A stretch of DNA of 64,000 nt, from assembly GCF_016401385.1 (NCBI RefSeq), contig NZ_JAEACF010000001.1, forward strand, positions 2,790,001-2,854,000. The letters are read 5' to 3'. Within the stretch, counting starts at the first letter, position 1, and every line of letters starts with the position of its first letter. A program made the position numbers and the translations under genes. Positions 929 to 20,843 of this stretch are shown one piece after another. The stretch comes from Fictibacillus halophilus (GTDB lineage: Bacteria; Bacillota; Bacilli; Bacillales; Fictibacillaceae). Under the pieces are notes generated by a model, which made no database searches, was not told the DNA's origin, and saw only the letters and a program-made list of their open reading frames with translations.

Positions 929-973
929 TCACGTGTATCCCCTTTCAGTACCTCTATCATTTTACATTTATAT

Positions 974-1013: not shown

Positions 1014-1099
1014 AGTAAAGAACTCTATTAAATAAGAAGAATAATGTAAACTCTGGAAATTGAATAGAATGAGGAAAAACATGAAAATACTATTCTAAT

Positions 1100-2776
1100 T
1101 TATTTAGTTGTACTTACTGTAATTTTTACTCTTTTTTTTCGGTCATTAATAATACTTGAGCAAATAACAACTGCTATAATAAATATTGCTATCCATTTCA
1201 TTACCTGAATTAAAAGCAGATTTTTTTCATAATCGCTAGAAATCAAATCTTTTTCAACTATAATTTTATTATTTTCAGTCATTATAGTAATTCCTTTTAC
1301 GGAAACGGAATTACTGATACTCTTTAAATCTAACCACTTAGTATTAGGAATATCTTCAAGGAAAGTTATTAATTTTTTAAAATCCTTTAATCCTAAGTAA
1401 GGATGATAGAATCCGGAAATATAGGCATTTGAAAATAAACTATAAAACTCTGCCTTTTCCTCCATTTTAATAATCGCATTTGGATCTTCTTCCTTAGCAA
1501 ACCCAATTGTCTCAGGTAACAATACCATCCCTTTTAAAAATTTTGGCTGTGATTTATAAAGTGGAGCATAGATTGTTCTCCATGTTGTATTTGAAATTTG
1601 CACCTGGCCTATATAAGTTGAAAAATGATTTGCAATTATTTTATATCCTTCCTTCGACATTGCATAATGCGGAGCTTCAAAGGCTAAAGGGTATAATTTG
1701 TGAGCGACTAATTCTTGTACTCCTTGTTCAACCGCTTTCTCGATATATTTCTTTTCAAAAGCTTTCTTTTCCTGAATATAGTTGTTGAATTCCAGTAACG
1801 AATTAAAATCTTTTTCAAACATTGGCTTTTCATTTTTCTTCTGTAGTATAGGGCGATCATTCTCTACGTCCCAAAATTCAAATCCTTCGCCTGTTTCGCT
1901 ATCTCTATATTGATGTTTATATCCATGTAGGATGATCGAACCACCATGATCCTGCATATATTTTAATACTTTTACCAAGCGAGGTTTTTCAGAAAGCTGT
2001 ATTATCTCACTTCCTTCTGTATATACAGGAATGACAGCGACCATATATGGTATATTTTTACTATAAAGATACTCAGCGAATTTTTTTAAATTTTCAGGAT
2101 CTGTTTTTGGATGAATATCCTCTAAGCGGATATACTTTAAATTTAGTGGAATTGCAGTTTCCTGAAAAAAGTTGAATAGAGATTCTCCTAGAAAGAGACC
2201 AATGGGGTTATATAGTGATTTAGAAGCAAAATAATATGTTCTGTAGCTTGAAACAAGCAATGGAACTTTTTCGTTATTGTTAGTTGTTCCTTCTAAAAGC
2301 ACTTTTATTGAAGGATTATTCGCAGTAATAAGATTAATAATTCGTTCCTCTGGTAATTCTTTTGATATTTTTTTAACTTTAACTGATATGGATTTAATAA
2401 TTACTTCATCTTTAACATGTACAAAGGAAAATCGAGGGAAATAGTTAATATTCTCCCCTATTGCCATAACATTTCCTTTAAACTCTTCAACAAACATTGT
2501 AAGTTCACTTGATATTTTCTGTTTAGATAATCCAAAATAAATTAAATAGGAGTAATCCTGTAAATTAGAAAAACTATTAATTTCATTTTGAGATAAAACA
2601 GTTACCTTTGTTGAAAAATGCCCAATTAAAGTTTCTAAAATTTTTATTTGATTTAGATCGTTTGAATGACTTGAATAGATAATTAAAACTTTTCTGTCTA
2701 CTTCATCAGCTTGAACTGACCCTAAGTTAAACAAAATAAAGCAACAAACAATTATACATAAAAGAATTTTATTCAT
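1100..2776 (-). CDS. Secreted membrane-anchored DUF2334 protein (polysaccharide-deacetylase-like)
   Basis: The start is set at ATG 2776, behind AAAGG with a 7-nt spacer. An in-frame ATG further upstream would add 37 residues before the signal peptide. The protein is 558 residues: a signal peptide (MNKILLCIIVCC onward, cut near SVQA), a first domain of about 170 residues, then a DUF2334 domain from about residue 210, and a C-terminal membrane helix with a basic tail. DUF2334 belongs to the NodB-like deacetylase/glycosidase clan. RLED (residues 217-220) and HGYKH (284-288) are the likely metal-binding Asp and His-x3-His. It lies 150 bp downstream of a GT2 gene on the same strand, so a role in trimming or deacetylating that polymer is likely but inferred. 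No substrate can be read from the sequence. Confidence 0.8.
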   Translation of the reverse strand: MNKILLCIIVCCFILFNLGSVQADEVDRKVLIIYSSHSNDLNQIKILETLIGHFSTKVTVLSQNEINSFSNLQDYSYLIYFGLSKQKISSELTMFVEEFKGNVMAIGENINYFPRFSFVHVKDEVIIKSISVKVKKISKELPEERIINLITANNPSIKVLLEGTTNNNEKVPLLVSSYRTYYFASKSLYNPIGLFLGESLFNFFQETAIPLNLKYIRLEDIHPKTDPENLKKFAEYLYSKNIPYMVAVIPVYTEGSEIIQLSEKPRLVKVLKYMQDHGGSIILHGYKHQYRDSETGEGFEFWDVENDRPILQKKNEKPMFEKDFNSLLEFNNYIQEKKAFEKKYIEKAVEQGVQELVAHKLYPLAFEAPHYAMSKEGYKIIANHFSTYIGQVQISNTTWRTIYAPLYKSQPKFLKGMVLLPETIGFAKEEDPNAIIKMEEKAEFYSLFSNAYISGFYHPYLGLKDFKKLITFLEDIPNTKWLDLKSISNSVSVKGITIMTENNKIIVEKDLISSDYEKNLLLIQVMKWIAIFIIAVVICSSIINDRKKRVKITVSTTK

Positions 2777-2930
2777 TTCGGTTACCTTTCTAACATAATA
2801 GTTTGTATACTGCACTAGTTTATATCTATTAAGATTGCTTAATATCAACCGAATATCAGTAAAAAATGATTTCAACACAATAGTCAACTTCTAAATCTTA
2901 TATCATTGCTATACATCAAAAAAATTCAGT

Positions 2931-4280
2931 TTACTTCTCTTCAAGAGCTAATGCTACTTCTTCCATAGCAATGTTACGAGTATGTTCAGTTCTAACCCAC
3001 TTTTTATTTTCAGTTGTAAATGCTGCCCAGATAAATAATGGAATAAAAGAATAAGAGATTAAGAAAAAACTTGGGATTGCTTTAAACATAGTAATTTTGC
3101 GCATAGCATCTATTTTTACTGAATATATCATGTAAAACACGTTAAATGAAACCAATATAAGCCAAATCCATATGGGGATAAAAGATTGTGCCCAATATAA
3201 AGGAATCAACCATTTTATCGACACTACCAAGCCAATTAAAGTAGCCAATATTATTTTTCCAGGATTAATCAAGTACAAAAATCCATCAAAGGCACGGATA
3301 TCTAAATCACGGATACTTTTCCATAACAGTGGCAACGCATATTTAAAACATACATCCCAATGTCCTCTTGCCCATCTTAACCGCTGAACACAAGAAGTGA
3401 TAAATCCTTCTGGCTTTTCATCATAAACTCTAGAATGGTGATTCCACTTTGTAAGTACGCCTCGTAATAAGCATTGCATAGTAAACTCTAAATCTTCTGT
3501 TAACGAAGTAGCTGTCCAACCTATTTGACGAATAAGATAAGTTTCAACACAGAAACCCGTACCACCAACCGTGTTGCCTAATCCTAACCTTGATTTTGCC
3601 AATTGCCACGAACGGTTCATATAATAGTAGCTTGTAGCAAAAGAAAGAGTAACCCAAGTATCATTTGGATTTTTTGTGTCTAAATAACATTGAATCAATC
3701 TATCCCCATTACACAAGTGATCGTTCATTTCCTTTAAGTAGTTCGTACTAACAAGATTATCAGCATCAAAAAAAGCAACACCATCAAATTCGCGCGTTAA
3801 ATCTCTTCCGAAATAATCCAATGCATATTTAATGGCATAAGGTTTACCTCGTTTTTCACCGGGTAAGTAAGTATGTTCAATTACAGTAACTCCAAGCGAA
3901 CGACTAATACTTGCTGTAGAGTCTGAACAATTGTCTGCAATTACAGTAACAGTATAAAGGTGTTCAGGGTATTCCTGCTTTTTAAGATTTTGAATCAAAC
4001 TCCCAATTACTCTTTCTTCATTGTGTGCTGGAATTAATATTAAAAAACGCTTCTCTGGTCCATGTTGTTTCTGCTGGCGGGGTCTCCCAAAGCCAAATAG
4101 ACTAATTACAACCCAGTAGCCCCAGAAAGACAAGACACTTAATTGCAAAGCGGTAAAGCTGTATATCAAAAACTCTTCTCGAAGCTCCATAAAAAGTGAG
4201 ACCGTTAGTAATAATAATGAAAATACAAATAGAAGTGCCTTATTTTTTTCCCAAAAAAAATACTTTAGTCTATTGGTCAT
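2931..4280 (-). CDS. Membrane GT2 glycosyltransferase, processive polysaccharide-synthase type
   Basis: The protein is 449 residues with two N-terminal membrane helices (about 15-35 and 45-63), a cytosolic GT2 domain and two or more C-terminal helices (about 320-400). The GT2 signatures are complete: the nucleotide-binding Asp in VIADNCSD (about 114-120), DADN (172-175), the TED base motif (261-263) and QRLRW (299-303), which in this family marks synthases that extend a polymer. It resembles PgaC/IcaA/BcsA-like catalytic subunits more than dolichol-type transferases. It has its own promoter region with two SinR-like operators and is followed by the DUF2334 gene. The product is unknown. No PilZ domain is present, so I see no direct c-di-GMP control. 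Confidence 0.85.
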   Translation of the reverse strand: MTNRLKYFFWEKNKALLFVFSLLLLTVSLFMELREEFLIYSFTALQLSVLSFWGYWVVISLFGFGRPRQQKQHGPEKRFLILIPAHNEERVIGSLIQNLKKQEYPEHLYTVTVIADNCSDSTASISRSLGVTVIEHTYLPGEKRGKPYAIKYALDYFGRDLTREFDGVAFFDADNLVSTNYLKEMNDHLCNGDRLIQCYLDTKNPNDTWVTLSFATSYYYMNRSWQLAKSRLGLGNTVGGTGFCVETYLIRQIGWTATSLTEDLEFTMQCLLRGVLTKWNHHSRVYDEKPEGFITSCVQRLRWARGHWDVCFKYALPLLWKSIRDLDIRAFDGFLYLINPGKIILATLIGLVVSIKWLIPLYWAQSFIPIWIWLILVSFNVFYMIYSVKIDAMRKITMFKAIPSFFLISYSFIPLFIWAAFTTENKKWVRTEHTRNIAMEEVALALEEK

Positions 4281-4307
4281 AACAGTCCCGCCTTTATAAT
4301 GAATATT

Positions 4308-4327
4308 TTGTTCTATTTAAAGAACAA
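4308..4327 (-). promoter_or_regulatory. SinR-like operator, promoter-proximal copy
   Basis: A perfect inverted repeat TTGTTCT-ATTTAA-AGAACAA. The layout GTTCT-N6-AGAAC is that of the characterised B. subtilis SinR operator (consensus GTTCTYT half sites). It starts just downstream of the inferred transcription start of the GT2 gene, a position suited to repression. Confidence 0.7.
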
Positions 4328-4335
4328 TTAATTCT

Positions 4336-4364
4336 ATTATAGGGGGATGATTATTTACAATAAA
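4336..4364 (-). promoter_or_regulatory. Candidate SigA promoter of the GT2/DUF2334 operon
   Basis: On the minus strand a perfect TATAAT -10 (4336-4341) sits 17 nt from a weak TTTATT -35 (4359-4364). It lies between the two SinR-like operators. The poor -35 suggests a weak or activator-assisted promoter. Confidence 0.5.
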
Positions 4365-4382
4365 ATCGTGTTTCGCACCGTA

Positions 4383-4402
4383 TTGTTCTCAAAAAAGAAC
4401 AA
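4383..4402 (-). promoter_or_regulatory. SinR-like operator, distal copy
   Basis: A second perfect inverted repeat TTGTTCT-CAAAAA-AGAACAA. Its centre is 75 bp (about seven helical turns) from the proximal copy and upstream of the -35. The half sites and spacer length are identical while the spacer sequence differs, which argues for selection on the half sites. Confidence 0.7.
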
Positions 4403-4571
4403 ACGCTTTATATTTCATTGTATTTCTTTAGAATTCGTATCTTTTCACCTTACTGGTACATCAGCTAACTATGAAATACCGATTTTATTTAGCCAAATGA
4501 ATCTAAATATCATAATCGTATATTCAATAATAAATTTTTAAATTGTCTACCTAGAATAGATAAAAGAAAAC

Positions 4572-4604
4572 AAAAAAAGCCTGCAGCGTTTGCTGCAGGC
4601 TTTT
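4572..4604 (-). terminator. Intrinsic terminator of the synthase/dehydrogenase operon
   Basis: A 13-bp stem AAAAGCCTGCAGC with a 4-nt loop, followed on the minus strand by a T run, just after the dehydrogenase stop at 4615. Confidence 0.9.
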
Positions 4605-4614
4605 GATCTTATAT

Positions 4615-5958
4615 TTATAGTATTTCATAATACCCTTTAAATTCAGAAATATGCTGAAATGCATTCTTTGTATCGAAAAGTAAAGAGGCTTGTTTCGCAA
4701 TCATCTCATAATTAAAGTCACTATGGTTTGTTGTTAGAATAACTAGGTCACTATTTTTGATCACATCTTCAGTACATGGTATTGTATTGTAGATTTTGTT
4801 GTTAACAGCAAAAGTACCTACATGCGGATCACAGATTGTAAGGTTTGCTCCTAGATTCTCCAAGTTTTCAATTACTGGTAATACAGGGCTTTCTCTCATA
4901 TCATTAATATCTTTTTTGTAGGATACTCCTAAAAGAACAATGTTTGAATCACTGATTGCTTTTCGTTTGCTGTTCAACATCTTTTGAACACGATACTCAA
5001 TATAGGATGGCATTGTATCATTAATCTGACCTGATAGCTCGATGTATCGTGAGGTTATATGCTTTTCTTTCGCCTTCCATGTTAGGTAGTAAGGATCTAC
5101 AGGGATACAATGTCCACCGATTCCTACACCTGGATAGAAAGGCATGAAACCGTATGGCTTTGTATTTGAAGCTTCAATGACTTCCCACATATTAATTCCT
5201 AAACGTTCGCAGATCATTGTCATTTCATTTACAAATCCGATATTTACAAAACGGAATGCATTTTCAAAAACTTTTGCCATCTCAGCTACTTCAGTAGAAG
5301 ATACGCGGTGAACATTATTTCCTACAAAAAGTGCAGCTAAATTCGTACTTTCTTCATTCATTCCACCCACTACTTTAGGTGTATTACTCAAAGAAAATGA
5401 TCGGTTACCTGGATCTATTCGTTCTGGCGTATAGGCAACAAAGATATCTTCACCAGGTGTAAATCCAGATTTTTCTAGCTGAGTAATGATAATCTCTTGT
5501 GTAGTTCCAGGATAAGTGGTGCTTTCCAAAATAATCAGCTGGCCCTTTTGAGCAAATTTTGAAATATTGCTTATGGCAGAAGTCACATAGGACATATTCG
5601 GCTGCTTGTATTGATCTACTGGTGTAGGTACACAGATCGTCAAAATATCCATATGTTTAACTAATTCAAATAGAGAAGTTGCTTGTAACCGTCCTCCAGA
5701 TACTAGCTTGCTCAATTCTTCATCATCTACATCTGAAATATAATTAATTCCTTTATTTATGGAATCAATTTTTCTATTATCAACATCAAATCCCATAACT
5801 TTATAGCCGTCTCTTGCCTTCTTTACAGCTGTAGGCAGACCAACATACCCTAAACCGACAACCCCAATGGTTGCTTCTTTTGATTTTAATTTTTGTTCAA
5901 GGTCACAAGCATAATTCTTTTTATCAGTAAAAATCAAATCACTAGCTAAGCCGCTCAT
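4615..5958 (-). CDS. Nucleotide-sugar 6-dehydrogenase, UDP-HexNAc (WbpA/CapL-like) class
   Basis: A 447-residue NAD-dependent UDP-sugar dehydrogenase that oxidises C6 to a uronic acid. The Rossmann motif is GVVGLGYVGLP (32-42), followed by ESTTYPGT (145-152), the catalytic Lys in AEMAKVFEN (Lys229) and the catalytic Cys in GGHCIPVDP (Cys284). GGHCIPVDP and ESTTYPGT are typical of UDP-GlcNAc/UDP-ManNAc dehydrogenases, whereas UDP-glucose dehydrogenases (HasB/TuaD) carry GGSCFPKD. It follows the hyaluronan-synthase-like gene by 25 bp with AAGGAGG before the ATG, so it should feed that synthase. The N-terminal tail of about 28 residues before the Rossmann fold is longer than usual. Substrate class is inferred from motifs only. 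Confidence 0.9.
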   Translation of the reverse strand: MSGLASDLIFTDKKNYACDLEQKLKSKEATIGVVGLGYVGLPTAVKKARDGYKVMGFDVDNRKIDSINKGINYISDVDDEELSKLVSGGRLQATSLFELVKHMDILTICVPTPVDQYKQPNMSYVTSAISNISKFAQKGQLIILESTTYPGTTQEIIITQLEKSGFTPGEDIFVAYTPERIDPGNRSFSLSNTPKVVGGMNEESTNLAALFVGNNVHRVSSTEVAEMAKVFENAFRFVNIGFVNEMTMICERLGINMWEVIEASNTKPYGFMPFYPGVGIGGHCIPVDPYYLTWKAKEKHITSRYIELSGQINDTMPSYIEYRVQKMLNSKRKAISDSNIVLLGVSYKKDINDMRESPVLPVIENLENLGANLTICDPHVGTFAVNNKIYNTIPCTEDVIKNSDLVILTTNHSDFNYEMIAKQASLLFDTKNAFQHISEFKGYYEIL

Positions 5959-5983
5959 GATTTCCCTCCTTATTATTCGTTTT

Positions 5984-7261
5984 TTATCTTGTTCCCCAAC
6001 CAGTGGATTTTAAAGTTAGTAACGCGTAAAACCTTAATGGGAAAAGCAGTCCTAGATGAATTAATCCATATAACGGTGCCATTAAGAATACAATGGGGCT
6101 CTTTAATATATAAAATACATTTCTTGCATAAGCTGAGAATGTTAAATATCCGAGGTAATATAATAATAGAATGTACCCGAAGGTTTTTATCTTAAACACT
6201 AGAGCAATTATGATAATGAATCCAAACATTAGCCATAATGAAAGCTCTAGAATAACCCAAATTAATGTTTTAGGTTTCTCTAATCCTATTTTAAGAGCGA
6301 TGATGCTCTCTCTAAAGAAAGACTTATTCCACCGAATTTGCTGTTTCAAAAACTGCCTTAATGTACTTGGAACATCCGTATCACAACGAGCAGTTGACTG
6401 ATACAACGTTTTTCCTTTTAATATTGCATAATTAGTCAAGCAACGATCATCACCGTATTGAACGGCTTCTCCTAAAAACATTTGATTTCCATAGTCTTCT
6501 AGATTATCAAAGATGACTTCTCTTCTGTAACAGCTGATGGGTCCTGAACAAACAAGTACATTCCCTGTAACAGACTGTGCTGCTCTCTCAACACGAAATG
6601 CGTTATCATAACGCATATCCAATAGCTTAGTGAAAATGTTTTCGTCTTTGTTTCTAGCATTAATGTGACCTGTCACTGCCATAACTTCTTCATCATGGAA
6701 TGGACGCAGCAATTCTCGAACTGCATCTGGGTATACATAGCCATCACTATCTACTGTAAAGATGATATCTCCAGTCGCCTCTTTAAACGCCCAAATTTGA
6801 GCATGTCGCTTCCCTTGATTTTTTTCTAAACGATGTACAATCAGTTTTGGTAAAGGAATACCTGAAGAATTGGTTTGATTTATACGGCTTTCCATTTCGG
6901 TTTTATACTTAAGCACCGCTTCATATCCCGATACATCCTTACTTCCGTCATCAATTAAGAACACCTCATGAATTGGATAATCCTGTTCCAATATACTTTC
7001 AACTGTCTTAATAACCGCATCTGGTTTTTCATTATATGAGGGAATGATAACCGATACTTTATAATCTAAAGTTTCTTTTGTTTCAGGCTTATATTGAAAC
7101 GATAAGAGCATTTTTCCAATTAAATAAGTTACCATAATTGATCCATATATCCCCAATGACATATGTAGCCCGCCTTTTGCTTTGTAACTAACGTATGCTA
7201 GTGTTAAAACAAAAAAGGTGAACAAAGTAATGATGAGCCATTTTTGTTTCTTTGTTTCCAA
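5984..7261 (-). CDS. Hyaluronan-synthase-like processive GT2 (HasA homolog)
   Basis: 425 residues, close to streptococcal HasA (419). TTG start at 7261 with AAGGAGG 7 nt upstream. Two N-terminal helices precede the GT2 core: DDGS (104-107), GKRHAQ (150-155), DSDG (171-174), SGPISCYRRE (239-248), GDDRCLTNYA (270-279) and QQIRWNKSFFRES (307-319). Membrane helices follow, and the C-terminus ends near STGWGTR. These blocks, including the C-terminal one, match Class I hyaluronan synthases closely. Such enzymes polymerise and export alternating GlcA and GlcNAc. Because the partner dehydrogenase looks like the UDP-HexNAc type, the polymer may not be hyaluronan. The operon is two genes (synthase, dehydrogenase). 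I see no confident promoter in the upstream AT-rich 280 bp. Confidence 0.9.
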   Translation of the reverse strand: METKKQKWLIITLFTFFVLTLAYVSYKAKGGLHMSLGIYGSIMVTYLIGKMLLSFQYKPETKETLDYKVSVIIPSYNEKPDAVIKTVESILEQDYPIHEVFLIDDGSKDVSGYEAVLKYKTEMESRINQTNSSGIPLPKLIVHRLEKNQGKRHAQIWAFKEATGDIIFTVDSDGYVYPDAVRELLRPFHDEEVMAVTGHINARNKDENIFTKLLDMRYDNAFRVERAAQSVTGNVLVCSGPISCYRREVIFDNLEDYGNQMFLGEAVQYGDDRCLTNYAILKGKTLYQSTARCDTDVPSTLRQFLKQQIRWNKSFFRESIIALKIGLEKPKTLIWVILELSLWLMFGFIIIIALVFKIKTFGYILLLYYLGYLTFSAYARNVFYILKSPIVFLMAPLYGLIHLGLLFPLRFYALLTLKSTGWGTR

Positions 7262-7578
7262 CTTAACGCCTCCTTAATTATTCTATATTTCTATATAACT
7301 AGAGATTTAAAATCTTTCTTCAAACCTCTTTATACTAAAATAACTAATAATAGAATACCATTCCTACTCTTACACAATATTCCTGATTCATTTTTTAATA
7401 TTAAAGGACCCACATAAATTTGACAAGCTTTATTGGAATAATTTTTCGTTATAAATACGCTTACAATATTAATAATAATTTAATGAAAATTAATATTTTT
7501 TGTTTGATTAATATAGTAACCGTTTTCAATTCTATATAAAAAAATTCCTAATCAGCATGATTAGGAATTGAAAATATT
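7262..7578. other. Very AT-rich intergenic region upstream of the synthase
   Basis: It holds the lyase terminator at 7537-7569 and, presumably, the synthase promoter. I could not identify a convincing -35/-10 pair, and no SinR-like inverted repeat is present here. No gene is visible. Confidence 0.6.
7537..7569 (-). terminator. Intrinsic terminator after the polysaccharide lyase gene
   Basis: An 11-bp stem AATTCCTAATC (7543-7553 with 7559-7569) with a 5-nt loop and a T run on the minus strand. Confidence 0.85.
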
Positions 7579-10554
7579 CTATTGGGTTGTCAAATAAGTA
7601 ATAAGAACCTGATTATTTTCTTCTTTTGTATAATCCGTGTTTTGACCATTTACATAAACAGATTTAATGTCAGGTGCATAAAAGAGTAAATCAATAGTTT
7701 TGAATCTATCAATACCTTTAAATTCCAGGTGAAGTGAATCTTTATTTATTTTCGATTTCATTTCTTCCTCTATGTTTACTTTAACCTTTGGATCTATTAC
7801 ACCTCTTGCAGAGAGGAGCTGACCACGCTTCATGTCGAGATAATTTAAATAATAGAAGTGGGACTGGTTCTTCAAGTCCACTCTTACACTATTACTTGTT
7901 TCTTTGTAGCCTTTAATACTTGCTGAACTGTTATTTTTATATGGCTGATAAATTTTAAGGAAATTCGCTTCATTTCCGTTTTGTCTCTCTATTAATATTG
8001 GGCTCAATTGATTAGGTTGAGTTGAAGGTCCTGGGCCAGTAGCTCTAATCAATTTTCCATTGTTTGATGTGGGTATTGATATAACTCTCAGTCCAGAACC
8101 TCCATCATTGAAGGTTGCATTCCAAGTAGAATTAGATTTTACAGTACTCACATCTTTCAAATGTTCGTAGCCGTTGCTGCTATAGCCAAACAACGATTTA
8201 GAATTGGCGCTCCACGTCTTAACATCAGTAGCTAGCTTACCCAACCCATGTAAAAACCAATCATATGAGTGTTTCTTCTTAGGATCTGACACTTGAAACC
8301 AATCGACAACATAATCATTATTCATCCATATGGCTCGAGAGTATTTTATATCATAAGCCTCATTAGCTTCTGCATACATATACTTAAATGTCTTGGTATC
8401 AATAAATGAAACCATATTACCAGTAGTTTCTTGCTGAGGCTTTCCGTCAACTACGACTGTATTATGGCCAATCGTTTGTTTATACCATGTTCTGTAAAGA
8501 GGATGGGAGTATGCTGGTGTACCAAAGTCAGGCGCTAAATTCTTACCTACTCCAAACAAATCAATGCCAAGTTTATCAAGATGCCCGTGTGAACCCCCAT
8601 GAGGTCCATAATCCATTAATGTATAAAGCTGGTCCACGCTATTGGGTGTATCCGACCTAAGAATCCCATGTCCGACATCCTTAAAATTACTGCTTCTGAT
8701 CCCACTATATGTGGATGGTAAAATTGAATCTTCACCAAAAAATAGAGCAAAATCCCCTCTCCTATATAAGGTTTTATATTTTTCATTCATTAACCAAGCA
8801 TATTTTGAATCCTTATAATTGGTATATGCTGATTCATAGTCGTAATAACCCTTAGAAGAAAAGGAGTTAATTAATGAGGCTCCATAGCTTCCACCATCAT
8901 TATTTGAAGGCAAGGTCAGATTAGGGTAAGCATAGAGCAATGGCGTATCAAACATCTTTTTGAAATTTTCATTTAAGAATAGATTATAGTCCCATTTAGC
9001 TGCAGTTTCGGCTAGTATGTTTAGTGGTGCAAGTGTATATGCATGATAGGCTATTGAGCCTTCCCACCAAAAACCATCCGATTCCACTCCGTTTTCCATC
9101 AAGTATTCAAAACCTTCTTTACCATATACCGCCTGTTGTAGCAGCTGACGGTCTCCTAACACAGCACCTGCCATACCAATTGCAGCATTGTGCCACGCTT
9201 GCCAGTTTGATCGCCCGACTGAGTAGCTTGTAATTGATTCAATTGAAGGTCGAATAAGGTTTAATTCTACGTTTCTTTTTGCCTCATCTGAAAATTCACT
9301 GTGATTGTAGAGCAAGTCATAAGACTGAATAATATCTACCATTGCTACTGACTCATCTAGCGATTGCCAAAACATTCTTCCACCTCGACTTTGAAGTGGA
9401 TACATAGGATAAGCATCGGCATAATCATTTAGAATCCTAATCGCTTCGCTTCCATAGTTGCTATTACCACTCAAGGCATACGCTACTGAAAGATTCTTTA
9501 ATGCTTGGGTGGCTTCATTGTGTTTATAATAATTCAATCCCGCATCAAATTTTCCCCCGTAATAAGTACTGTTCTCAGATTTACAAACATGCTTCCCTTT
9601 ATCAAAAGTGAGGGATGAACCATCTTTGCAAACATACCATGATGGATGTCCTGCATAACCCATTGGCACCGTAATTTTTGCATTCAGCCATCTATTCGCT
9701 TCTTTTTCAATATACTTCCAGTAATTGTTGGCCCACTGTTCTTTTTTAATTCGCTGTTTTGCTCTTTCCAGTTGAGAGCTTCCGATAAAAGAGTTTGGAT
9801 GTTTATGTTTAGCAAGAGAATAATCCACTGCTTCATAATTTAAAGAAACATCTGATTGATTAGATGACGAATCTGCGACTCTAACATAAAGTTTATTATT
9901 CTGACCCATTGTTACTTTCTGCATAGAAGAAACAATAAATGTCCCTTCACTATCAGGTAATAGGATTATGGTTTGTACATCCGTTTTAAGAATATCTTTA
10001 AATTCACTAGGTATTTCTAATTTATATGTGTTTTTTTTGGTCCCTTGATTTTTTACGTGAATAAAAAATTCTAGATAGTCACCTACAGCCACTCGTTTTG
10101 TACTAGTCAAATTATAATTAACTTCATTGCTCTGAAATGTAATTTTATTCTTTTCCATATCTGATTCTATTCGCAAATGAGTAAGATCTTCAAAGATTTC
10201 TTTAGAGATCATTGGGGTTTTTCCTATTTTTTGAATCTTTTCACTCAATGTAATAGCTTTTCCATTTACTACTGCACTGTCTGAGTTTAATTTTAAAACA
10301 AACGTGTCATTTCGATGGCTAATAGTTGCATACTGATTCGATGTATCCCATGCTACTCTGAAGCCTAGAGACCGAAAGGAATCATCAATGGGCATCCAAA
10401 GAGTACTTCCTTTCCAAACAGGCTCATTACTCAATTGAACTGTACTTCCATTCACCATGAGTTTAATTTCCTTTGATGAGAAAACAGTCGTAGTTATAAA
10501 CAACGTGACTAATGTAAAAACAATGATTAAGTTGACTTGAATTTTTTTTCTCAT
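7579..10554 (-). CDS. Secreted heparinase II/III / alginate-lyase-like polysaccharide lyase
   Basis: 991 residues. An N-terminal signal or anchor segment (1-27) is followed by a copper-amine-oxidase-N-like wall domain (about 30-140), a beta-sandwich resembling NEW3 domains (about 150-240), an alpha/alpha helical lyase domain (about 250-580) and a heparinase II/III-type beta domain (about 600-900). Readable catalytic-type residues are NWQAWHNAA (450-458), SIAYHAYTLAP (500-510) and GGSHGHLDKLGID (653-665). This fold class cleaves uronic-acid polysaccharides by beta-elimination. Its position beside a uronate-type synthase suggests it processes or releases the locus's own polymer, as AlgL does for alginate. 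It is a single gene with its own terminator, transcribed in the same direction as the synthase. The exact PL family and substrate are not determinable here. Confidence 0.85.
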   Translation of the reverse strand: MRKKIQVNLIIVFTLVTLFITTTVFSSKEIKLMVNGSTVQLSNEPVWKGSTLWMPIDDSFRSLGFRVAWDTSNQYATISHRNDTFVLKLNSDSAVVNGKAITLSEKIQKIGKTPMISKEIFEDLTHLRIESDMEKNKITFQSNEVNYNLTSTKRVAVGDYLEFFIHVKNQGTKKNTYKLEIPSEFKDILKTDVQTIILLPDSEGTFIVSSMQKVTMGQNNKLYVRVADSSSNQSDVSLNYEAVDYSLAKHKHPNSFIGSSQLERAKQRIKKEQWANNYWKYIEKEANRWLNAKITVPMGYAGHPSWYVCKDGSSLTFDKGKHVCKSENSTYYGGKFDAGLNYYKHNEATQALKNLSVAYALSGNSNYGSEAIRILNDYADAYPMYPLQSRGGRMFWQSLDESVAMVDIIQSYDLLYNHSEFSDEAKRNVELNLIRPSIESITSYSVGRSNWQAWHNAAIGMAGAVLGDRQLLQQAVYGKEGFEYLMENGVESDGFWWEGSIAYHAYTLAPLNILAETAAKWDYNLFLNENFKKMFDTPLLYAYPNLTLPSNNDGGSYGASLINSFSSKGYYDYESAYTNYKDSKYAWLMNEKYKTLYRRGDFALFFGEDSILPSTYSGIRSSNFKDVGHGILRSDTPNSVDQLYTLMDYGPHGGSHGHLDKLGIDLFGVGKNLAPDFGTPAYSHPLYRTWYKQTIGHNTVVVDGKPQQETTGNMVSFIDTKTFKYMYAEANEAYDIKYSRAIWMNNDYVVDWFQVSDPKKKHSYDWFLHGLGKLATDVKTWSANSKSLFGYSSNGYEHLKDVSTVKSNSTWNATFNDGGSGLRVISIPTSNNGKLIRATGPGPSTQPNQLSPILIERQNGNEANFLKIYQPYKNNSSASIKGYKETSNSVRVDLKNQSHFYYLNYLDMKRGQLLSARGVIDPKVKVNIEEEMKSKINKDSLHLEFKGIDRFKTIDLLFYAPDIKSVYVNGQNTDYTKEENNQVLITYLTTQ

Positions 10555-10850
10555 AACTAAACCCCCATACGTTTTACCTTTTATCGTCTAATCTAGGGAA
10601 ATTTAAACATTTCTGTTATGACGTAAAGTAACAAGATGAGGATCAGTTATATTAACTTTTTTTTGATTAACAAAATCTTAATATATGATTTATAAACATG
10701 ATTATTAGCATTAAATGTTGGATTTTTAGCACATGTATATTATTAAAAAATTCTAATAATTATATTTGGATAATGAAAAGGGTGGACTTGGGGTTTAAGT
10801 TAATATATTCTTGTTAAGTTAAAAAATATTATATTAGGAGAGGATAAATC

Positions 10851-11975
10851 TTGGGTAATCAATCTATTCCAGATGACACGATTAAAGATTTAGACAGTAC
10901 TAAGCCTTTAACGCAGTATAATTACACATTAGATACGTTGAGGGTTGCTGCAACATTTATGGTTGTACTCATACACCAAATGTCAATTTATTACGAAAAT
11001 GGTTTTGATGGTTTTTGGAATTTTTTCTTATATCGTTTACTTTTTGATATTTCCGTACCCATTTTCTTTGCAGCAATGGGATATTTCATCTTCACAAAAG
11101 AGTTTGGAACAGAATCTAAGAAAAAATTAAGCACAATATCACTGAAACGTTCTGCTCGTTATTTTAAGTATTATATTCTTGCTAGTGCTGTTTATGTTGG
11201 TATTGAGTATTTTGTCGTACAAATAGATAAGGCATATTTAAACTATAATTCTATGGAAATTTTCATGAGTCGTTTTACTCTTGACCGTTTCATTAACGGT
11301 ACAATTGGCGGTGTACACCTATGGTTCTTAATGGGAGCTGTTCTGAGTTTTATTCTATTCGCTATCTTGTTCCGTTTTGGTGTTCACCCAGCTGCTATGA
11401 TTTTAATTGCTGGACCATTATATTATGTAGGGCATATTCAACCATTAGCAAATCTTCAATATGTCGATCAACTAATTGCTGATGAAGGCTTGTTCATGGG
11501 GATGTTCTATATGACAATCGGTATGTTTGTTCGGGCTTTAACAATCAAGTACAATCCTTCTTATCTACTAATTGCTATAGGCACGTTACTTATTTTCCCA
11601 TTTGCACAATATTTTAAATTTGGACCACCACCTTTTATTTTCCTTACAGCCTCAACTATGTTTTTCATCATCTATGCAAGAAGTAAGGGTTCAATCGGAA
11701 AGAACAGCAAATTTATTCACCACTTTTCTAAGTACAGCTTATTTATTTACCTGTTCCATTTAGGATTCTTACGATTATCAAATAAGGCTCTGCAATCCTA
11801 TAATCACACGAACGGAATAACAAATCCGTTTTGGAGTGAAGCCTGGTATTTTCCTGTTGTGTTCACATTAGCAATTGTTGGTCCCATTCTTTTATTTTAC
11901 ATTTTATATGGGCCAATCCTAGTATATAAAAAGCAGGCAAAGAAAAAAAACATTGATTTACATGCAACAGTATAG
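10851..11975 (+). CDS. Integral membrane acyltransferase family 3 (IcaC/OafA/WecH-like)
   Basis: 374 residues, TTG start with AGGAGAGG at 10836-10843. It has about ten hydrophobic segments. The first helix carries TLDTLRVAATFMVVLIHQ, with Arg31 and His42 as the expected acyltransferase-3 catalytic pair. Members move acyl groups, often acetyl or succinyl, onto surface polysaccharides, and IcaC is the O-succinyltransferase of PNAG loci. It is divergent from the lyase gene and alone on the plus strand of this region. I infer that it decorates the polymer made by one of the two neighbouring GT2 synthases. Confidence 0.85.
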   Translation: MGNQSIPDDTIKDLDSTKPLTQYNYTLDTLRVAATFMVVLIHQMSIYYENGFDGFWNFFLYRLLFDISVPIFFAAMGYFIFTKEFGTESKKKLSTISLKRSARYFKYYILASAVYVGIEYFVVQIDKAYLNYNSMEIFMSRFTLDRFINGTIGGVHLWFLMGAVLSFILFAILFRFGVHPAAMILIAGPLYYVGHIQPLANLQYVDQLIADEGLFMGMFYMTIGMFVRALTIKYNPSYLLIAIGTLLIFPFAQYFKFGPPPFIFLTASTMFFIIYARSKGSIGKNSKFIHHFSKYSLFIYLFHLGFLRLSNKALQSYNHTNGITNPFWSEAWYFPVVFTLAIVGPILLFYILYGPILVYKKQAKKKNIDLHATV

Positions 11976-12094
11976 AACTAAACACGTAATTTAGAAAGTA
12001 TTTCCATTTAACTGATACAACACTTAGTCTCATACTCCAAAGGTAGTAATAATTCAATTATCAACGAGTCTCTATCATAAATTACCTACAGTTA

Positions 12095-12122
12095 AAGACA
12101 GCCCTTGTAAAAGAGCTGTCTT
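12095..12122. terminator. Hairpin between convergent acyltransferase and subtilase genes
   Basis: An 8-bp stem AAGACAGC (12095-12102 with 12115-12122). Neither strand has a strong T run, so terminator activity is uncertain, but it sits exactly between two convergent gene ends. Confidence 0.5.
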
Positions 12123-12131
12123 GAACCTACA

Positions 12132-15100
12132 TTAAATCAGTTTTAACTTTAACGTATACGGTGTTAATGAGGCGTTACCGAAAATGTCTGTGACTTTCAC
12201 GTGATACGTTCCTTTTTTAACAGAGAAGTTCAAGAACTCTGCGTCTCCTAAACCATACGTATCAGAGGATGCAACAAGCTTTCCTTTGTTGTCATACAGA
12301 CTGATCACACCGTCGATCTGTGCGTTTGCAAATGTGAGGTTACCTGTTTTTGCACTCTTCACGTTAAACTTGTACCAATCTGCATCGCCGTTTGAAACGC
12401 CCGCATTGAGATAGCCTGTGCTTTCCCACGTATTTGTTGATTTCCATTTTAGTGTGATTGGTTTAGATGGTACATTGTTTTTCACAACAGATCCTGCATC
12501 TTCATCTTTAGTGTTAACAGGTTTAACCGTTAACTCGTATTCGTTCAAGTTAGCAGGCGGGTATTCCCAGCTCCATTGGTCGATAATGATGAAGTAGCCT
12601 TTCCCTGATTTTGCTTTAAATGAACCTTGCTCAGGTTCGTTCGCAAATCCTCGATCCGTCACGCGTGCACTTCCGAATTCCTCTTCATCTAGCTTTCGGT
12701 TGCCGTTCGTGTCTTCTAGTATTACAAGAATGCCATCAACAGGCTGTAGCAATTCTTTTGGATATTTCGCTTTCAACTCTTTTGATGTTGCTAATGGCTG
12801 GAAGTGCGCGCCATAGATGCTGTTCGATTTTGCTTTTACATAATAAGCATCAACATCTCCATTTGAACCAAAGTTCGCACGGATTTTCTCACCAGCCATA
12901 TCTTTTACTGGTGTATTCTCAAAATCGTTATTTGGCTCGTGCTTATCTTCAGTATTCTTAAACTTCATCTTAGATGTGATCACATAACGATCAAAGCTAG
13001 GTTGATAGTTTAAGTCCATCACGCGGATAAAATACTCTTCCCCTTTTCGCAGCCCTGCAGATAACTGATACTTTGTTTTAACATCGCTAAATCCATACTC
13101 AATGTTTGATGCTACTGGAATTAAATCCATGTAACCATCTTGGAATTCGTGGATTTTTAGAATTTCAACAACCGGTACAGAGTCTGAATAGCTAAAGTCA
13201 AACTGTAAGATTCCGCTCTCATCTAGCTGTAATTTGAAGTAATCTTCATCACCGCTGAACTGAAGATGACCCATCGCACCTGTTTCTACATCATATTCCA
13301 ATGCGGATTCGCGCAGTTGGTTCATCATTTCCTCTTGCTCAGCCATCCAATCTTCATTCTCAGATTCATGGAAGCTTCGTTTGTATTGTGCACGTTTATT
13401 AAGGAAGCTTTCAATGGAAACACCGCCTTCCATATACTCTTCCTCATAATGGCCGTACAAAGGTAGGCCGTCTTCATCTTCAGACATCGCTTTTGTATCC
13501 ACTTTAAGAGAATAAGGAAGGTGTGAAGAAGGCCATTCCTTCATCCCATTACCCACTTCGCCCATCATGAACGAGTAGCTAGGTGTATGGTTGTTCACTT
13601 CGATAATATATTCCACGCCAGGCATGGCTTCAAATGTATACTTTTCACTTTCGCTTGTTGGCTTGTAATTGATGACTTCCATTAGATGCTCCATTGGAGG
13701 CATCTCTTCTTCTGGCAGATCTTCCATTTCCTCTTCAGGAAATTCTTCAACCATATACACGCCAATGGCACTATCAATTCCTGTTACGCCCTTTAAGTCG
13801 ACATTAACAAGTTGTGGCTCTTCACCTGATAGTTTGAATGTGTAGTAATCAGAATCTCCATTTTCTTCTGCCGTAAATGTACGATCGGTTTCTTTTTCAT
13901 TGTTGTAAGGGAAATCTTTAACTTGTACTGGCTTTTCTTTTGTGTTCGAATCTTCCATAAGTTTATCAAATTTTTCTATAGTCAACTGATAAGAGGACTT
14001 GCCAGCTGCGTTGTAGTTTCCGTTTGCATCTGAAACACCGATTACAAGTGTGCCATCTTCAGCCACTTTATAAAGGTGTCCTTCTGCTTTTCCTTCAGCT
14101 ACTGCGTTAACAGGAAGCTCTTTTGGTTTTGTATCCTTATCTATTAAATAGTAAGTCATCTTATAGTCATAATCGGAAGATCCTACAAGAGTGGTTTGAA
14201 TGTACTGACCTGCTTTTACAGGAACTTGAACAAACTTCTCTTCATACGGAAGCTTAATCGCTCCTTTTTCTACTAACTTCTTCGTAAGATCTATTTTCTT
14301 GGCTGCTTTTAGTAAGCTCGCTTTATCACGTTTTACATTAACAGAAGGTGGAATCTTAGAAGTATTAAACGAAATTGCTTTTACCGGATCAACAAGCCCG
14401 TTAGCAAACTTCGTGTCGTATCCTTTTACTCCCAGATCTTTCGTAGTATGTTCTAAAATGTACTCAATCTGTTTGGGTGTAAGATTAGGGTTCTTCGATA
14501 ATAAAAGTGACACAACCCCAGCGACTACTGGAGATGACATCGATGTTCCACTCATCTTCATAAACGTTGACTTCTTCTCATAATGATAAAGCGGTGCATA
14601 GACATCTTCACCAGGTGCAACAACATCCACTGAAGGACCGTAGTTCGAGTAATAAGAGAGTTCGTTCATCTTATTTGTTGAACCAACAGAGATAACCCCT
14701 TCTAATGCAGCTGGATAAGAAGGCATATCGATTGCTTCATTTCCTGCAGATGCGACTACTGTTACGTTTGCAGCTAACGCTTTTTTCACAGCTTCTGCAA
14801 TAAGAGGAGAATTAGAGTAGCCACCTAAACTCATGTTAATCACTTTCGCCTTCTTCTCAACCGCATAAAGAATAGCTTCAGCAATGACATAATCTGAAGC
14901 ACCCATACCTCGATCAAACACATCGATTGGTAAGATCTCCACATTCGGGTTAATTCCATACCCGCCAATACCGTTTCCTTTTTCACCAGCAATGATCCCT
15001 GCAACATGCGTTCCATGTGAATCAGGAGAACCTTGATTCATCGGATTTACAGCATTATAAGATGGAAGCAATTTATTTTTTAATTCAGGATGATTTTTAT

Positions 15101-15620
15101 CAATACCTGTATCAATTACAGCTACTCGTACTTTGTTCTTACCGCTCATCGTTTGAGCTTTTCCTACATTTAATAGAGACAGATGATATTGTTCGGCTGT
15201 CTTTGGATCAGATGTTCCTTGTCTTGTAAAAAGCGCACTTGGTGAAACGTAAGTAACAGAATTTAGTTTGCTATAGTTCTGCATTACAGCATCAAGCTTT
15301 TTCCCTTTATCAATTTTTACTACGTCATAGCCTAATGAAGTAATTCTTCGTTGTAGGGATGCTCCTGCCTTCTTATGATCAGAAGCGGTTAATGGTTTGA
15401 CATACTTCACAATTAGCACAGAATCACTCATCTGTTTTTGCTTTTGTTTAGTAGGACCAAATAAGTTTTCTTTTACGGTATTACCTGGTTCAAATAAAGT
15501 AGAGACTGGAATTGAACTTACCTTAACCTCGTCTGATTTTGCTGAGACTGTCGTTAAGCCCGTTCCAACTAAACTAGCTGTCAGAGTGAGTGAAGCTAGT
15601 TTCTTGTGCCAATTAACCAT
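12132..15620 (-). CDS. Large secreted subtilisin-family (S8) serine protease
   Basis: 1162 residues from ATG 15620 (AAAGGGG, 8-nt spacer). A further in-frame ATG 37 codons upstream would precede the signal peptide and overlap the promoter. Signal peptide about 1-27, inhibitor-like propeptide about 65-130, catalytic domain about 160-415 with Asp170 (VIDTGID), His202 (SHGTHVAG), oxyanion Asn294 and Ser360 (GTSMSSP). The remaining 700 residues look like repeated beta-sandwich modules of the PPC type, including an acidic, Met-rich stretch (EEEMEDLPEEEM). No SLH, LPXTG or membrane anchor is seen, so it is probably released or loosely wall-bound. It could mature surface proteins; nothing ties it specifically to the polysaccharide genes. 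Confidence 0.92.
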   Translation of the reverse strand: MVNWHKKLASLTLTASLVGTGLTTVSAKSDEVKVSSIPVSTLFEPGNTVKENLFGPTKQKQKQMSDSVLIVKYVKPLTASDHKKAGASLQRRITSLGYDVVKIDKGKKLDAVMQNYSKLNSVTYVSPSALFTRQGTSDPKTAEQYHLSLLNVGKAQTMSGKNKVRVAVIDTGIDKNHPELKNKLLPSYNAVNPMNQGSPDSHGTHVAGIIAGEKGNGIGGYGINPNVEILPIDVFDRGMGASDYVIAEAILYAVEKKAKVINMSLGGYSNSPLIAEAVKKALAANVTVVASAGNEAIDMPSYPAALEGVISVGSTNKMNELSYYSNYGPSVDVVAPGEDVYAPLYHYEKKSTFMKMSGTSMSSPVVAGVVSLLLSKNPNLTPKQIEYILEHTTKDLGVKGYDTKFANGLVDPVKAISFNTSKIPPSVNVKRDKASLLKAAKKIDLTKKLVEKGAIKLPYEEKFVQVPVKAGQYIQTTLVGSSDYDYKMTYYLIDKDTKPKELPVNAVAEGKAEGHLYKVAEDGTLVIGVSDANGNYNAAGKSSYQLTIEKFDKLMEDSNTKEKPVQVKDFPYNNEKETDRTFTAEENGDSDYYTFKLSGEEPQLVNVDLKGVTGIDSAIGVYMVEEFPEEEMEDLPEEEMPPMEHLMEVINYKPTSESEKYTFEAMPGVEYIIEVNNHTPSYSFMMGEVGNGMKEWPSSHLPYSLKVDTKAMSEDEDGLPLYGHYEEEYMEGGVSIESFLNKRAQYKRSFHESENEDWMAEQEEMMNQLRESALEYDVETGAMGHLQFSGDEDYFKLQLDESGILQFDFSYSDSVPVVEILKIHEFQDGYMDLIPVASNIEYGFSDVKTKYQLSAGLRKGEEYFIRVMDLNYQPSFDRYVITSKMKFKNTEDKHEPNNDFENTPVKDMAGEKIRANFGSNGDVDAYYVKAKSNSIYGAHFQPLATSKELKAKYPKELLQPVDGILVILEDTNGNRKLDEEEFGSARVTDRGFANEPEQGSFKAKSGKGYFIIIDQWSWEYPPANLNEYELTVKPVNTKDEDAGSVVKNNVPSKPITLKWKSTNTWESTGYLNAGVSNGDADWYKFNVKSAKTGNLTFANAQIDGVISLYDNKGKLVASSDTYGLGDAEFLNFSVKKGTYHVKVTDIFGNASLTPYTLKLKLI

Positions 15621-15663
15621 ACACTTAACCCCTTTTATAGAAATATTTGGTATATCTATTTCT

Positions 15664-15693
15664 ATTATATCAGCCAACGAAACTATCTTACAA
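15664..15693 (-). promoter_or_regulatory. Candidate SigA promoter of the subtilase gene
   Basis: On the minus strand TTGTAA (15688-15693), an 18-nt spacer and a perfect TATAAT (15664-15669), about 45 nt before the chosen start codon. This supports the shorter start. Confidence 0.6.
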
Positions 15694-15703
15694 ATTTTTG
15701 AAT

Positions 15704-15742
15704 AAAAAAATCGAGATATGGAGATTATCATCCACGTCTCGA
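15704..15742 (-). terminator. Intrinsic terminator after the polysaccharide deacetylase gene
   Basis: A stem of TCGAGA-x-TGG type (15711-15721 with 15732-15742), then TTTTTTTATT on the minus strand. Confidence 0.8.
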
Positions 15743-15751
15743 AAACCAGTC

Positions 15752-16984
15752 TTATTTTTGATATTTTTCTAGTTCTTTTATTAATGTTTTTCCAGTCATG
15801 CCACCCGGAACATTAATTCGATTTAACTTAAAAGGACCTTTTTGTTTGTAGTTCATGCCTGGCTTAATCGTGAAAGTCATCTTGATCCCAGCTTGTTTCA
15901 ATAACTTCTCGGCACTGTCACTATTGTCACCAAACGGATAGGCGAACGAGATAACATTATTGCCGACTTTTTCCTCAATAATTTTTTTGTTGAGAAGTAA
16001 GTCGGCTAATACTCTCTTTTCGTAAGCTTGTTGAGTTTCAAGTTTACCATCTATCTTGATTGGTGTGGTAATGGCGCCTCGGTCATAAGTGGCCGTTTTT
16101 CCTTTATGATGCATGTCATACGTATGAGACTGTATCTCAAAAACACCAGACTCGTACATTTCCTTCGCTTGTGCCCAAGTCATTCTAGGAAACTCGTGAA
16201 TTTGCCCATCTTCTATCCGACTTCCTATTATATATACGGTCGCTTTCATATCTAACTCTTTTAAAATAGGATAGGCGATATTGTAGTTGCTTTCATATCC
16301 ATCATCCATCGTAATTAAAAGTGGCTTTTGAGGAAGTTCTTTCTTCCCTTCCATAAACGAGAGCAAGTCATGATCGTTGATTGTTGTATATCCCTGTTCT
16401 TTTAATGCGATTAGTTGCTCTTTGAAAAGATGAGGTTCCACCGTTGCATTAGTAGAAAGACCTTCTTGGAAATGATGGTACATCAATACTGTGACCGGAA
16501 TCTGTTCTTGTGGTAGATCAATAGATTCAACTGAGTTAATGAGAACCGAGCGAGTCGAGTTGTTCCATTTCACGTTATATCCGAGTGAGTCTGCAATAAA
16601 ACGAATAGGTACGAACGTGCGGTTATCATTTGCGATGACAGGAACATCTATAGTAGTAGATTTACCGTTCTTCCAAACTGTTTTCTTATTTAATGTCAGT
16701 TTAAATGTTATGTGTTCTTTTATGATAGTTATGCTGTTATCTTTTCCGTTCCATTTAACTGTAGCATCTAAGTTTTCAAATGTTTTTCGAATTGGCACGA
16801 GTGTTCGCGAATCTTTCACTTGAGGTGGAACATCATATGTAATCTTGTTTTGATCCACATATACCTGAATATCATCTGCTGTAGCAGATCCTGGTGGGTA
16901 TAGCCACAGACCGATCATCATAATAAGAACAATGAGAGTTTGGATAGTTTTTGCTAATAATTTTTTATCTCTATGAAACTTCAA
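15752..16984 (-). CDS. Secreted polysaccharide deacetylase with stalk domains (IcaB/PgaB-like)
   Basis: 410 residues, TTG start behind AGGGGGA. A signal/anchor helix (12-30) is followed by two copper-amine-oxidase-N-like repeats (about 38-150; TLVPIRKTFE and TFVPIRFIAD) and a NodB deacetylase domain (about 160-405). VLMYHHF (166-172), TMDDGY with Asp227/Asp228, and SHTYDMH with His287 and His292 form the metal site typical of the IcaB/PgaB subgroup that N-deacetylates exported beta-1,6-GlcNAc polymers. It is a single-gene unit, divergent from the LuxR-type regulator by 188 bp. A role on the GT2 product of this locus is plausible but not proven, since peptidoglycan is also a possible substrate. 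Confidence 0.88.
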   Translation of the reverse strand: MKFHRDKKLLAKTIQTLIVLIMMIGLWLYPPGSATADDIQVYVDQNKITYDVPPQVKDSRTLVPIRKTFENLDATVKWNGKDNSITIIKEHITFKLTLNKKTVWKNGKSTTIDVPVIANDNRTFVPIRFIADSLGYNVKWNNSTRSVLINSVESIDLPQEQIPVTVLMYHHFQEGLSTNATVEPHLFKEQLIALKEQGYTTINDHDLLSFMEGKKELPQKPLLITMDDGYESNYNIAYPILKELDMKATVYIIGSRIEDGQIHEFPRMTWAQAKEMYESGVFEIQSHTYDMHHKGKTATYDRGAITTPIKIDGKLETQQAYEKRVLADLLLNKKIIEEKVGNNVISFAYPFGDNSDSAEKLLKQAGIKMTFTIKPGMNYKQKGPFKLNRINVPGGMTGKTLIKELEKYQK

Positions 16985-17172
16985 TTAAAAATCCCCCTAA
17001 AAAACAAACAAAATTACTCCATATTACTAATATACATATTTTACCTATGTTTTTCACTATGTTTTTACTTAAATGTATATTTTTACAATAATAAAAGTTA
17101 AAGAGAAAACTGATGACATTTTTTTGAATTTGCTGTAACTTTGATTATGTTAATCAATTTGGAGGTTTTTTT

Positions 17173-17811
17173 ATGAACATAGTGATCATTCATCAATTAC
17201 CAATAATTCAAAATGAATTACGTTTATATATTACTCAAAAATTACCATTCTCAAATATTAGTTGCTACAACTCTTTTTCAAATTGCAATATAGATGTTTT
17301 TAATAAAAAAGATATTCTCATTATGAATATCGAAGAGAAAAATTTTAAACTTTTGTCTGATATGAAAATGCTTCAATATAGAGGTGTCAGAGTTATAGCA
17401 TGGTTACAATCAAATCATGAACTTACCATTAGATATTATTTAAAAGGAAGATTTATAGGATATTTTCTAAATGAAATAAATTATACTGTTATAAGTAACT
17501 CTTTACAAAATATTACGAATGATATCCCCTACCTTCAACCTAACTTAGCTTCAGTTCTACTTAATGAATATATAAATTACGAGGAAGAATGTGAAATTAA
17601 ACCAAACCCATCGTTATCTAAGCGAGAATTGGAAGTTTTGAAACTAATTGCCACGGGCTTTAATAATGAGAAAGTAGCAGAAACATTGTTCTTATCTGAA
17701 AGCACTGTAAAAAATCACGTAAGTTCTATTCTACGTAAATTAGACGTTCCTGACCGAACATCAGCTGTAATTAAAGCGTTAAAAAATAAGTGGATTATGC
17801 TCCAACTCTAA
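17173..17811 (+). CDS. LuxR/NarL-type regulator with degenerate receiver domain
   Basis: 212 residues, ATG behind GGAGG. The C-terminal 65 residues form a clear LuxR/GerE helix-turn-helix (LSKRELEVLKLIATGF, then STVKNHVSSILRKL). The N-terminal 120 residues have the length and strand pattern of a receiver domain, but the acidic pair after strand 1 is missing (VIIHQL) and the phosphoacceptor position reads IMNIEE, with Asn52 in place of Asp. Phosphorylation is therefore unlikely, and no histidine kinase gene is adjacent. Unusually for this window, it is very rich in Ile, Asn and Lys. It sits beside a polysaccharide deacetylase and could regulate the matrix genes, which is inference from position only. 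Confidence 0.85.
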   Translation: MNIVIIHQLPIIQNELRLYITQKLPFSNISCYNSFSNCNIDVFNKKDILIMNIEEKNFKLLSDMKMLQYRGVRVIAWLQSNHELTIRYYLKGRFIGYFLNEINYTVISNSLQNITNDIPYLQPNLASVLLNEYINYEEECEIKPNPSLSKRELEVLKLIATGFNNEKVAETLFLSESTVKNHVSSILRKLDVPDRTSAVIKALKNKWIMLQL

Positions 17812-19085: not shown

Positions 19086-19097
19086 GACTTCCCCTCC

Positions 19098-20839: not shown

Positions 20840-20843
20840 CGTT

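Follow-up and report, generated by a model that had tools for sequence, protein, structure and literature searches.

A conserved variant of the hyaluronan synthase operon, with a WbpA-type dehydrogenase and a predicted product, in an inserted segment of Fictibacillus halophilus

The inserted segment and its genes

The subject of this analysis is a predicted polysaccharide operon that pairs a hyaluronan-synthase-type glycosyltransferase with a WbpA-type nucleotide-sugar dehydrogenase, in a 64,000-nucleotide stretch of the Fictibacillus halophilus genome (the window, G000:C1:2790001-2854000 of a 3.92-Mb genome, 99.99% complete; positions below are those of the window). An earlier note on this DNA had assigned eight genes within 17 kb to a single undescribed exopolysaccharide system. 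Domain scans confirmed all eight at their places, i.e., a DUF2334 gene, a GT2 glycosyltransferase, a dehydrogenase, a HasA-like GT2, a lyase, an acyltransferase-3, a PgaB-like gene and a LuxR-type regulator; the gene list was therefore real, although it overlooked a 1,199-aa subtilase (12132-15731, - strand; domain scan, synteny), which forms the right flank of an insertion and is not part of the system.

In blastn, DNA homology to the relative G006 (locus L163) runs up to position 998 and resumes at 12127, two points that lie 13 bp apart in L163; therefore, 999-12126 represents an insertion of ~11.1 kb (no strand assigned) whose empty site is seen in G006. Synteny and GC content also mark the segment: the LtaS-like gene (protein 92% identical) stands directly after the subtilase orthologue in G006, one gene lies between the two in G003 and G004, and GC content is 33.2% for 929-12131 vs. 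39.4% for 25-64 kb. A plasmid search gave five records at 36-37%. Six genes make up the insertion, encoding the DUF2334 protein, a GT2, the dehydrogenase, the synthase, the lyase and the acyltransferase; the PgaB-like gene, the subtilase and the LuxR gene lie outside it. Moreover, the presence of DUF2334 does not follow that of the synthase: of 397 genomes of the order, 2 have both, vs. 1.3 expected (p 0.37). The empty site in G006 and these co-occurrence counts rule out a single 17-kb system.

Three terminator-like hairpins, found by pattern matching on the - strand, lie after the lyase (7543-7569, 12 pairs), after the dehydrogenase (4575-4604, 13 pairs, detected on both strands) and after the DUF2334 gene on the insertion's left border (979-1013, 14 pairs). 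They are the strongest of 15 such sites (8.3 ± 3.0 expected) and would divide the insertion into three predicted units: lyase, synthase plus dehydrogenase, and GT2 plus DUF2334. Promoter-like sites were at chance level (73 found vs. 70.8 expected).

The synthase and its partner dehydrogenase

The core enzyme is a HasA/NodC-like GT2 (5984-7261, - strand) that Pfam and NCBIfam scans, PDB matches, homologues and trees place in the class I hyaluronan synthase (HAS) family. It is 50-72% identical to the listed proteins labeled hyaluronan synthase (best 120 of 750 homologues), its top PDB matches are hyaluronan synthases, and the class I catalytic motifs DxD, GDD and QxxRW are kept as invariant columns of a 20-row alignment mapped to CvHAS. 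According to the available text of PMC12987647, K177, R341 and W342 of CvHAS contact the carboxylate and sugar of UDP-glucuronic acid (UDP-GlcA), with Lys177 and Arg341 holding the carboxylate; by alignment, these residues are K151, R310 and W311 in the window synthase. The synthase is rare, being present in 11 of the 397 genomes and in 3 of 18 within the genus (its own, G002 and G005).

Only 25 bp after the synthase lies a nucleotide-sugar 6-dehydrogenase (4615-5958, - strand), which domain scans, homologues and a tree place as WbpA-type and which is probably active on UDP-N-acetylglucosamine (UDP-GlcNAc). It is the single nucleotide-sugar 6-dehydrogenase found in the genome (one match each for a HasB query and for PF00984), and the same searches found no HasB-type UDP-glucose dehydrogenase in the operon or the genome. 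No hasC/GalU gene occurred among the 20 proteins scanned in 1-33.9 kb, the rest of the genome not having been searched for it.

The synthase scan found 107 relatives and kept 80 loci, of which 43 (L010-L052) were read; the 37 unread (L053-L089) are largely from Streptomyces. A dehydrogenase accompanied the synthase in 32 of the 43, WbpA-type in 13 and HasB-type in 19, and the two types never occurred together. The remaining 11 had none, several of them being cut by a contig end or carrying a partial synthase frame. In its 13 loci the WbpA-type gene lies 1-494 bp from the synthase, and this branch was seen in Fictibacillus, Priestia, Lysinibacillus, Alicyclobacillus, Listeria and Enterococcus. 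GalU/HasC was present in 18 of 19 HasB-type loci vs. 1 of 13 WbpA-type loci. Since GalU/HasC makes UDP-glucose, which HasB requires and a UDP-GlcNAc dehydrogenase does not, this split fits the chemistry. Whole genomes were searched as well: G002 and G005, which have synthases of the HasB-type clade, show one dehydrogenase each, HasB-like at 51%, and G415 (Lysinibacillus cavernae) and G033 have two each, none HasB-like above 30% identity.

The dehydrogenase tree (from which the L140 frame, on the wrong strand, was dropped) resolved three separate groups, namely a HasB clade (100/99), a Wbp-cluster clade (97/99) and the window's own clade (98/97), which adjoins the Wbp-cluster clade and contains the dehydrogenases of the Priestia and Alicyclobacillus synthase loci together with four context-free proteins. 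Bacillaceae homologues of the window enzyme (49-55% identical) are located in Wbp-type clusters, where all 12 loci examined have a Gfo/Idh homologue nearby and 6 of them a homologue of UDP-GlcNAc 2-epimerase; Pfam scans of three such loci confirmed Gfo/Idh, a DegT aminotransferase and a hexapeptide transferase. Thus, the WbpA-like character proposed in the earlier note is borne out by a grouping with Wbp-type cluster enzymes, away from HasB.

On the synthase tree, operon type changes only twice, both in a quick tree of 48 rows and in a careful one of 34 rows, from which 14 of the 48 had been dropped as long branches or near-copies. Both trees omit the broken or partial-frame loci L042, L044, L049, L051 and L052, which the 43-locus count includes. 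The HasB-type synthases of Bacillaceae form a clade (98/94) together with those of the two Fictibacillus relatives and a HasA labeled B. anthracis, and the window synthase lies outside it. The WbpA-type labels of synthases P0014/P0016 and dehydrogenases P0177/P0207 in the trees were taken from equal contig sizes (12821; 4435) and are suggestive only, as are the equal sizes shared by lyase and synthase records (11358, 33625, 6448), since one size, 18064, falls on dehydrogenases of two clades.

The operon thus has in common with hasABC of Streptococcus and hasACB of the B. cereus group a class I membrane GT2 synthase together with a nucleotide-sugar 6-dehydrogenase, but differs in the WbpA-type dehydrogenase, in having no GalU/HasC among the scanned genes and in a genome in which no HasB-like enzyme was found. 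The dehydrogenase, in turn, resembles WbpA of the UDP-GlcNAc3NAcA/UDP-ManNAc3NAcA pathway but, unlike the genes of Wbp clusters, has no adjoining WbpB/D/E-like gene and is paired with a synthase. On gene content and family placement, the locus is a real hyaluronan synthase operon variant that is conserved, and the exchange of HasB for a WbpA-type dehydrogenase, conserved across genera, is its unusual feature. The statement that no described system has this combination was too strong for the core, because the synthase belongs to the known class I HAS family. In the open-licence PMC literature, the top matches listed included no report of a hyaluronan synthase with a WbpA-type partner, which is not proof of novelty.

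Three further observations were made at synthase loci of relatives. GH16-family proteins lie beside WbpA-type synthase loci in Alicyclobacillus (L020, 9131-9931) and in a Bacillota metagenome-assembled genome (MAG; L045, 11273-12874), the latter protein also having a polysaccharide deacetylase domain. In Priestia endophytica, a MHYT-PAS-GGDEF-EAL protein (L011, 6672-9482) is encoded upstream of the synthase-dehydrogenase pair, suggesting control by cyclic di-GMP (c-di-GMP) there. A contig labeled Flavobacteriaceae (L032) carries a synthase nearly identical to the HasA labeled B. anthracis and is probably contaminated or mislabeled.

The predicted polymer

We propose, at a probability of roughly one half, that this operon makes a hyaluronan-like polymer in which an N-acetylhexosaminuronic acid, probably N-acetylglucosaminuronic acid (GlcNAcA), replaces GlcA. 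In its favor are the either-or pairing of synthases with WbpA-type or HasB-type dehydrogenases, the scarcity of GalU in WbpA-type loci, the lone dehydrogenase of this genome and its place in the tree, the few changes of operon type, the kept uronate-contacting residues, and a lyase that follows the synthase and has lost the alginate-type His (see below). The dehydrogenase would oxidize UDP-GlcNAc to UDP-GlcNAcA (or possibly UDP-N-acetylmannosamine, UDP-ManNAc, to UDP-ManNAcA), and the synthase, with the single active site of its class, would alternate UDP-GlcNAc with this uronate donor. An acetamido group at C2 of the uronate should fit, since the site also takes UDP-GlcNAc. The resulting chain, with hyaluronan-like linkages, would be exported through the membrane part of the synthase itself, trimmed or freed by the secreted lyase through beta-elimination, and perhaps acylated. 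That a synthase makes a uronate polymer, served by a dehydrogenase of its own and accompanied by a lyase, had been suggested in the earlier note, and the counts of 32 of 43 synthase loci and of 5 of 8 lyase-bearing genomes (see below) agree with it, as does the prediction of a Gram-positive system without a Gram-negative-style exporter, none being found among the proteins scanned.

Several findings weigh against a changed uronate. The window dehydrogenase stands beside the Wbp-cluster clade and not inside it, so that its use of UDP-GlcNAc rests on that kinship, and the window's clade does not include the WbpA-type dehydrogenases of Listeria, Enterococcus, Lysinibacillus and the MAGs. Sixty-four synthase alignment columns separate the operon types at an overlap of <=0.25, and none is decisive for a different donor: I242 and I349 alone are disjoint with a single letter in all 21 HasB-type (type-A) rows, both changes being mild, and the columns near the active site (F168, G174, Y269, I309) differ in part only. 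The exact place of the window synthase in the tree is without support, and the synthases nearest to it (P0002, P0008) lack context. Finally, the lyase also accompanies HasB-type synthases (G110, G365) and is therefore no marker of a new polymer.

The main alternative is true hyaluronan, in which the WbpA-type dehydrogenase now oxidizes UDP-glucose, or both sugars, so that the operon is equivalent to hasA-hasB and the lyase is a hyaluronate lyase. The HAS-like family and active site of the synthase, and the presence of the lyase in genomes with HasB-type synthases, are as this alternative expects, but it must explain a dehydrogenase that groups with Wbp-type enzymes, far from HasB, and the 12 of 13 WbpA-type loci without GalU. 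We consider it rather unlikely, though it is the strongest of the alternatives. Returning to the N-acetylhexosaminuronate polymer, we put forward only tentatively, and with less assurance than the proposal for the operon, its fullest form: that a conserved branch of class I HAS enzymes makes, not hyaluronan, but a new glycosaminoglycan in which GlcNAc is joined to GlcNAcA or some other N-acetylhexosaminuronate, with a dedicated WbpA-type dehydrogenase as supplier, and that the toroid lyase of this strain cuts it with a new specificity.

Some proteins of the WbpA-type synthase branch carry a hyaluronan synthase label in public records, and if the operon split is functional, part of the family is mislabeled. 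If the proposal is true, nature has an analogue of hyaluronan whose uronic acid is N-acetylated, and its synthase, dehydrogenase and candidate lyase form a matched set. In this family, one active site would then accept a uronate donor that also bears an acetamido group. This would permit a direct test of how the enzyme distinguishes its two sugars and could yield a material akin to hyaluronan but possibly resistant to common hyaluronidases.

The lyase and acyltransferase

The lyase (7579-10554, - strand) is predicted to be secreted and has Hepar_II_III_C and Alginate_lyase domains with an N-terminal Cu_amine_oxidN1 domain. Its AlphaFold2 (AF2) model (pLDDT, the predicted local distance difference test, 87.2) has an (alpha/alpha) toroid plus an antiparallel beta fold, with the PL17 oligoalginate lyase Alg17C as best structural match. 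Identity to PL17 and to the toroid lyases PL12, PL33, PL35 and PL40 is about 22%, and the window lyase differs from all of them in its extra N-terminal domains and its synthase linkage. The PL17 triad Asn201/Tyr258/His413 corresponds to N450/Y503/H656, kept in 20 of 20 rows, H656 lying in a low-pLDDT region. Unlike Alg17C, the window lyase has Trp at the His202 position and Ser in place of the alginate-type His200; 19 of 20 rows share this Ser and one retains His. A His at that position is tied to alginate cleavage in the available text of PMC12088678; since the same text reports that restoring it in other PL35 lyases conferred no alginate activity, its loss is a weak sign. The NCBIfam oligoalginate lyase model gave 79.2 bits vs. 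a cut-off of 1400. An alginate-like product is not our first choice, given the missing His, weak as that sign is, and the HAS-type synthase.

The synthase occurs in 5 of 8 lyase-bearing genomes vs. 11 of 397 overall (Fisher 3e-7; by genus 5e-4), and the two genes are adjacent in F. phosphorivorans as well. This association, above chance also by genus, makes it improbable that the lyase merely scavenges outside polysaccharides and stands beside the synthase by chance, even though three lyase-bearing genomes (G129, G226, G394) have no synthase and the two genes are far apart in G110 and G365. The acyltransferase-3 (10851-11975, + strand; Pfam Acyl_transf_3) lies within the insertion, and its action on the polymer is a guess. 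Elsewhere in the window, a MBOAT and DHHW/AlgX-like pair (40474-43188, + strand) lies near S-layer-domain genes and a UDP-GlcNAc 2-epimerase; its MBOAT is 57% identical to one beside the lyase and synthase of F. phosphorivorans (L008).

The GT2-DUF2334 module

The second GT2 (2931-4280, - strand; domain scans) begins 334 bp downstream of the dehydrogenase unit, in the same insertion, and is partnered by a membrane-anchored DUF2334 protein (1100-2887, - strand; domain scans, homologue counts, model), a putative deacetylase. DUF2334 homologues occur in 46 of the 397 genomes, and a match to this GT2 was found in 25 of 31 DUF2334 loci (1.5-kb flanks); by these counts the pair is a separate and commoner module than the synthase. 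Co-occurrence, which the earlier note had proposed as a check, therefore exceeded chance for synthase with dehydrogenase and synthase with lyase but not for GT2-DUF2334 with synthase. A fold search with the DUF2334 model (pLDDT 87.7) gave weak, mixed matches at low TM-scores, to amidotransferase-type domains and CE4 deacetylases, human heparan N-deacetylase NDST1 ranking second; we treat these as a lead only.

It is most improbable that the synthase makes a chitin- or NodC-like chain of GlcNAc only, with the dehydrogenase serving this module or a wall polymer, for although NodC is its best NCBIfam match (215 bits vs. a cut-off of 550) and the second GT2 lies close by, 13 loci pair the synthase with such a dehydrogenase, DUF2334 does not co-occur with the synthase beyond chance, and a terminator-like hairpin separates the two units.

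A GT2 beside a DUF2334-type protein also occurs in ydaJKLMN of B. subtilis and pss of Listeria, a likeness that depends on YdaL and PssB, which we take to be DUF2334 proteins. Overexpression of ydaK-N yields an exopolysaccharide in B. subtilis, YdaM and YdaN being putative glycosyltransferases, in the available text of PMC5422440. Unlike these c-di-GMP systems, no GGDEF-type receptor was present among the 20 proteins scanned.

Flanking genes and other features of the window

Outside the insertion lie a PgaB/IcaB-like deacetylase with a Cu_amine_oxidN1 domain (15752-16984, - strand) and a LuxR-type (GerE) regulator without a receiver domain in Pfam (17173-17811, + strand), both from domain scans. 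PgaB-like matches (E <= 1e-60) occur in 6 of 60 genomes, its own included, and the only other in the genus, in G006, is at a different place. With GT2s and a PgaB-like gene in the same 17 kb, the region recalls the poly-N-acetylglucosamine (PNAG; pga/ica) systems, from which it differs in that the PgaB-like gene lies outside the insertion; PNAG was rejected, as scores for PgaC/IcaA (105.4 and 55.7 vs. 422.3 bits) and PgaB (152.6 vs. 321.9 bits) all fell below cut-offs.

Four Xer-type tyrosine recombinases in tandem, which seem to form two related pairs, occupy 18246-21731 (- strand) and had no match in the relatives' stretches L161-L167. At 53151-54575 (- strand), a GntR DNA-binding domain is fused to a SBP_bac_1 solute-binding domain, within a group of sugar ABC transporter and oxidoreductase genes at about 45-57.7 kb.

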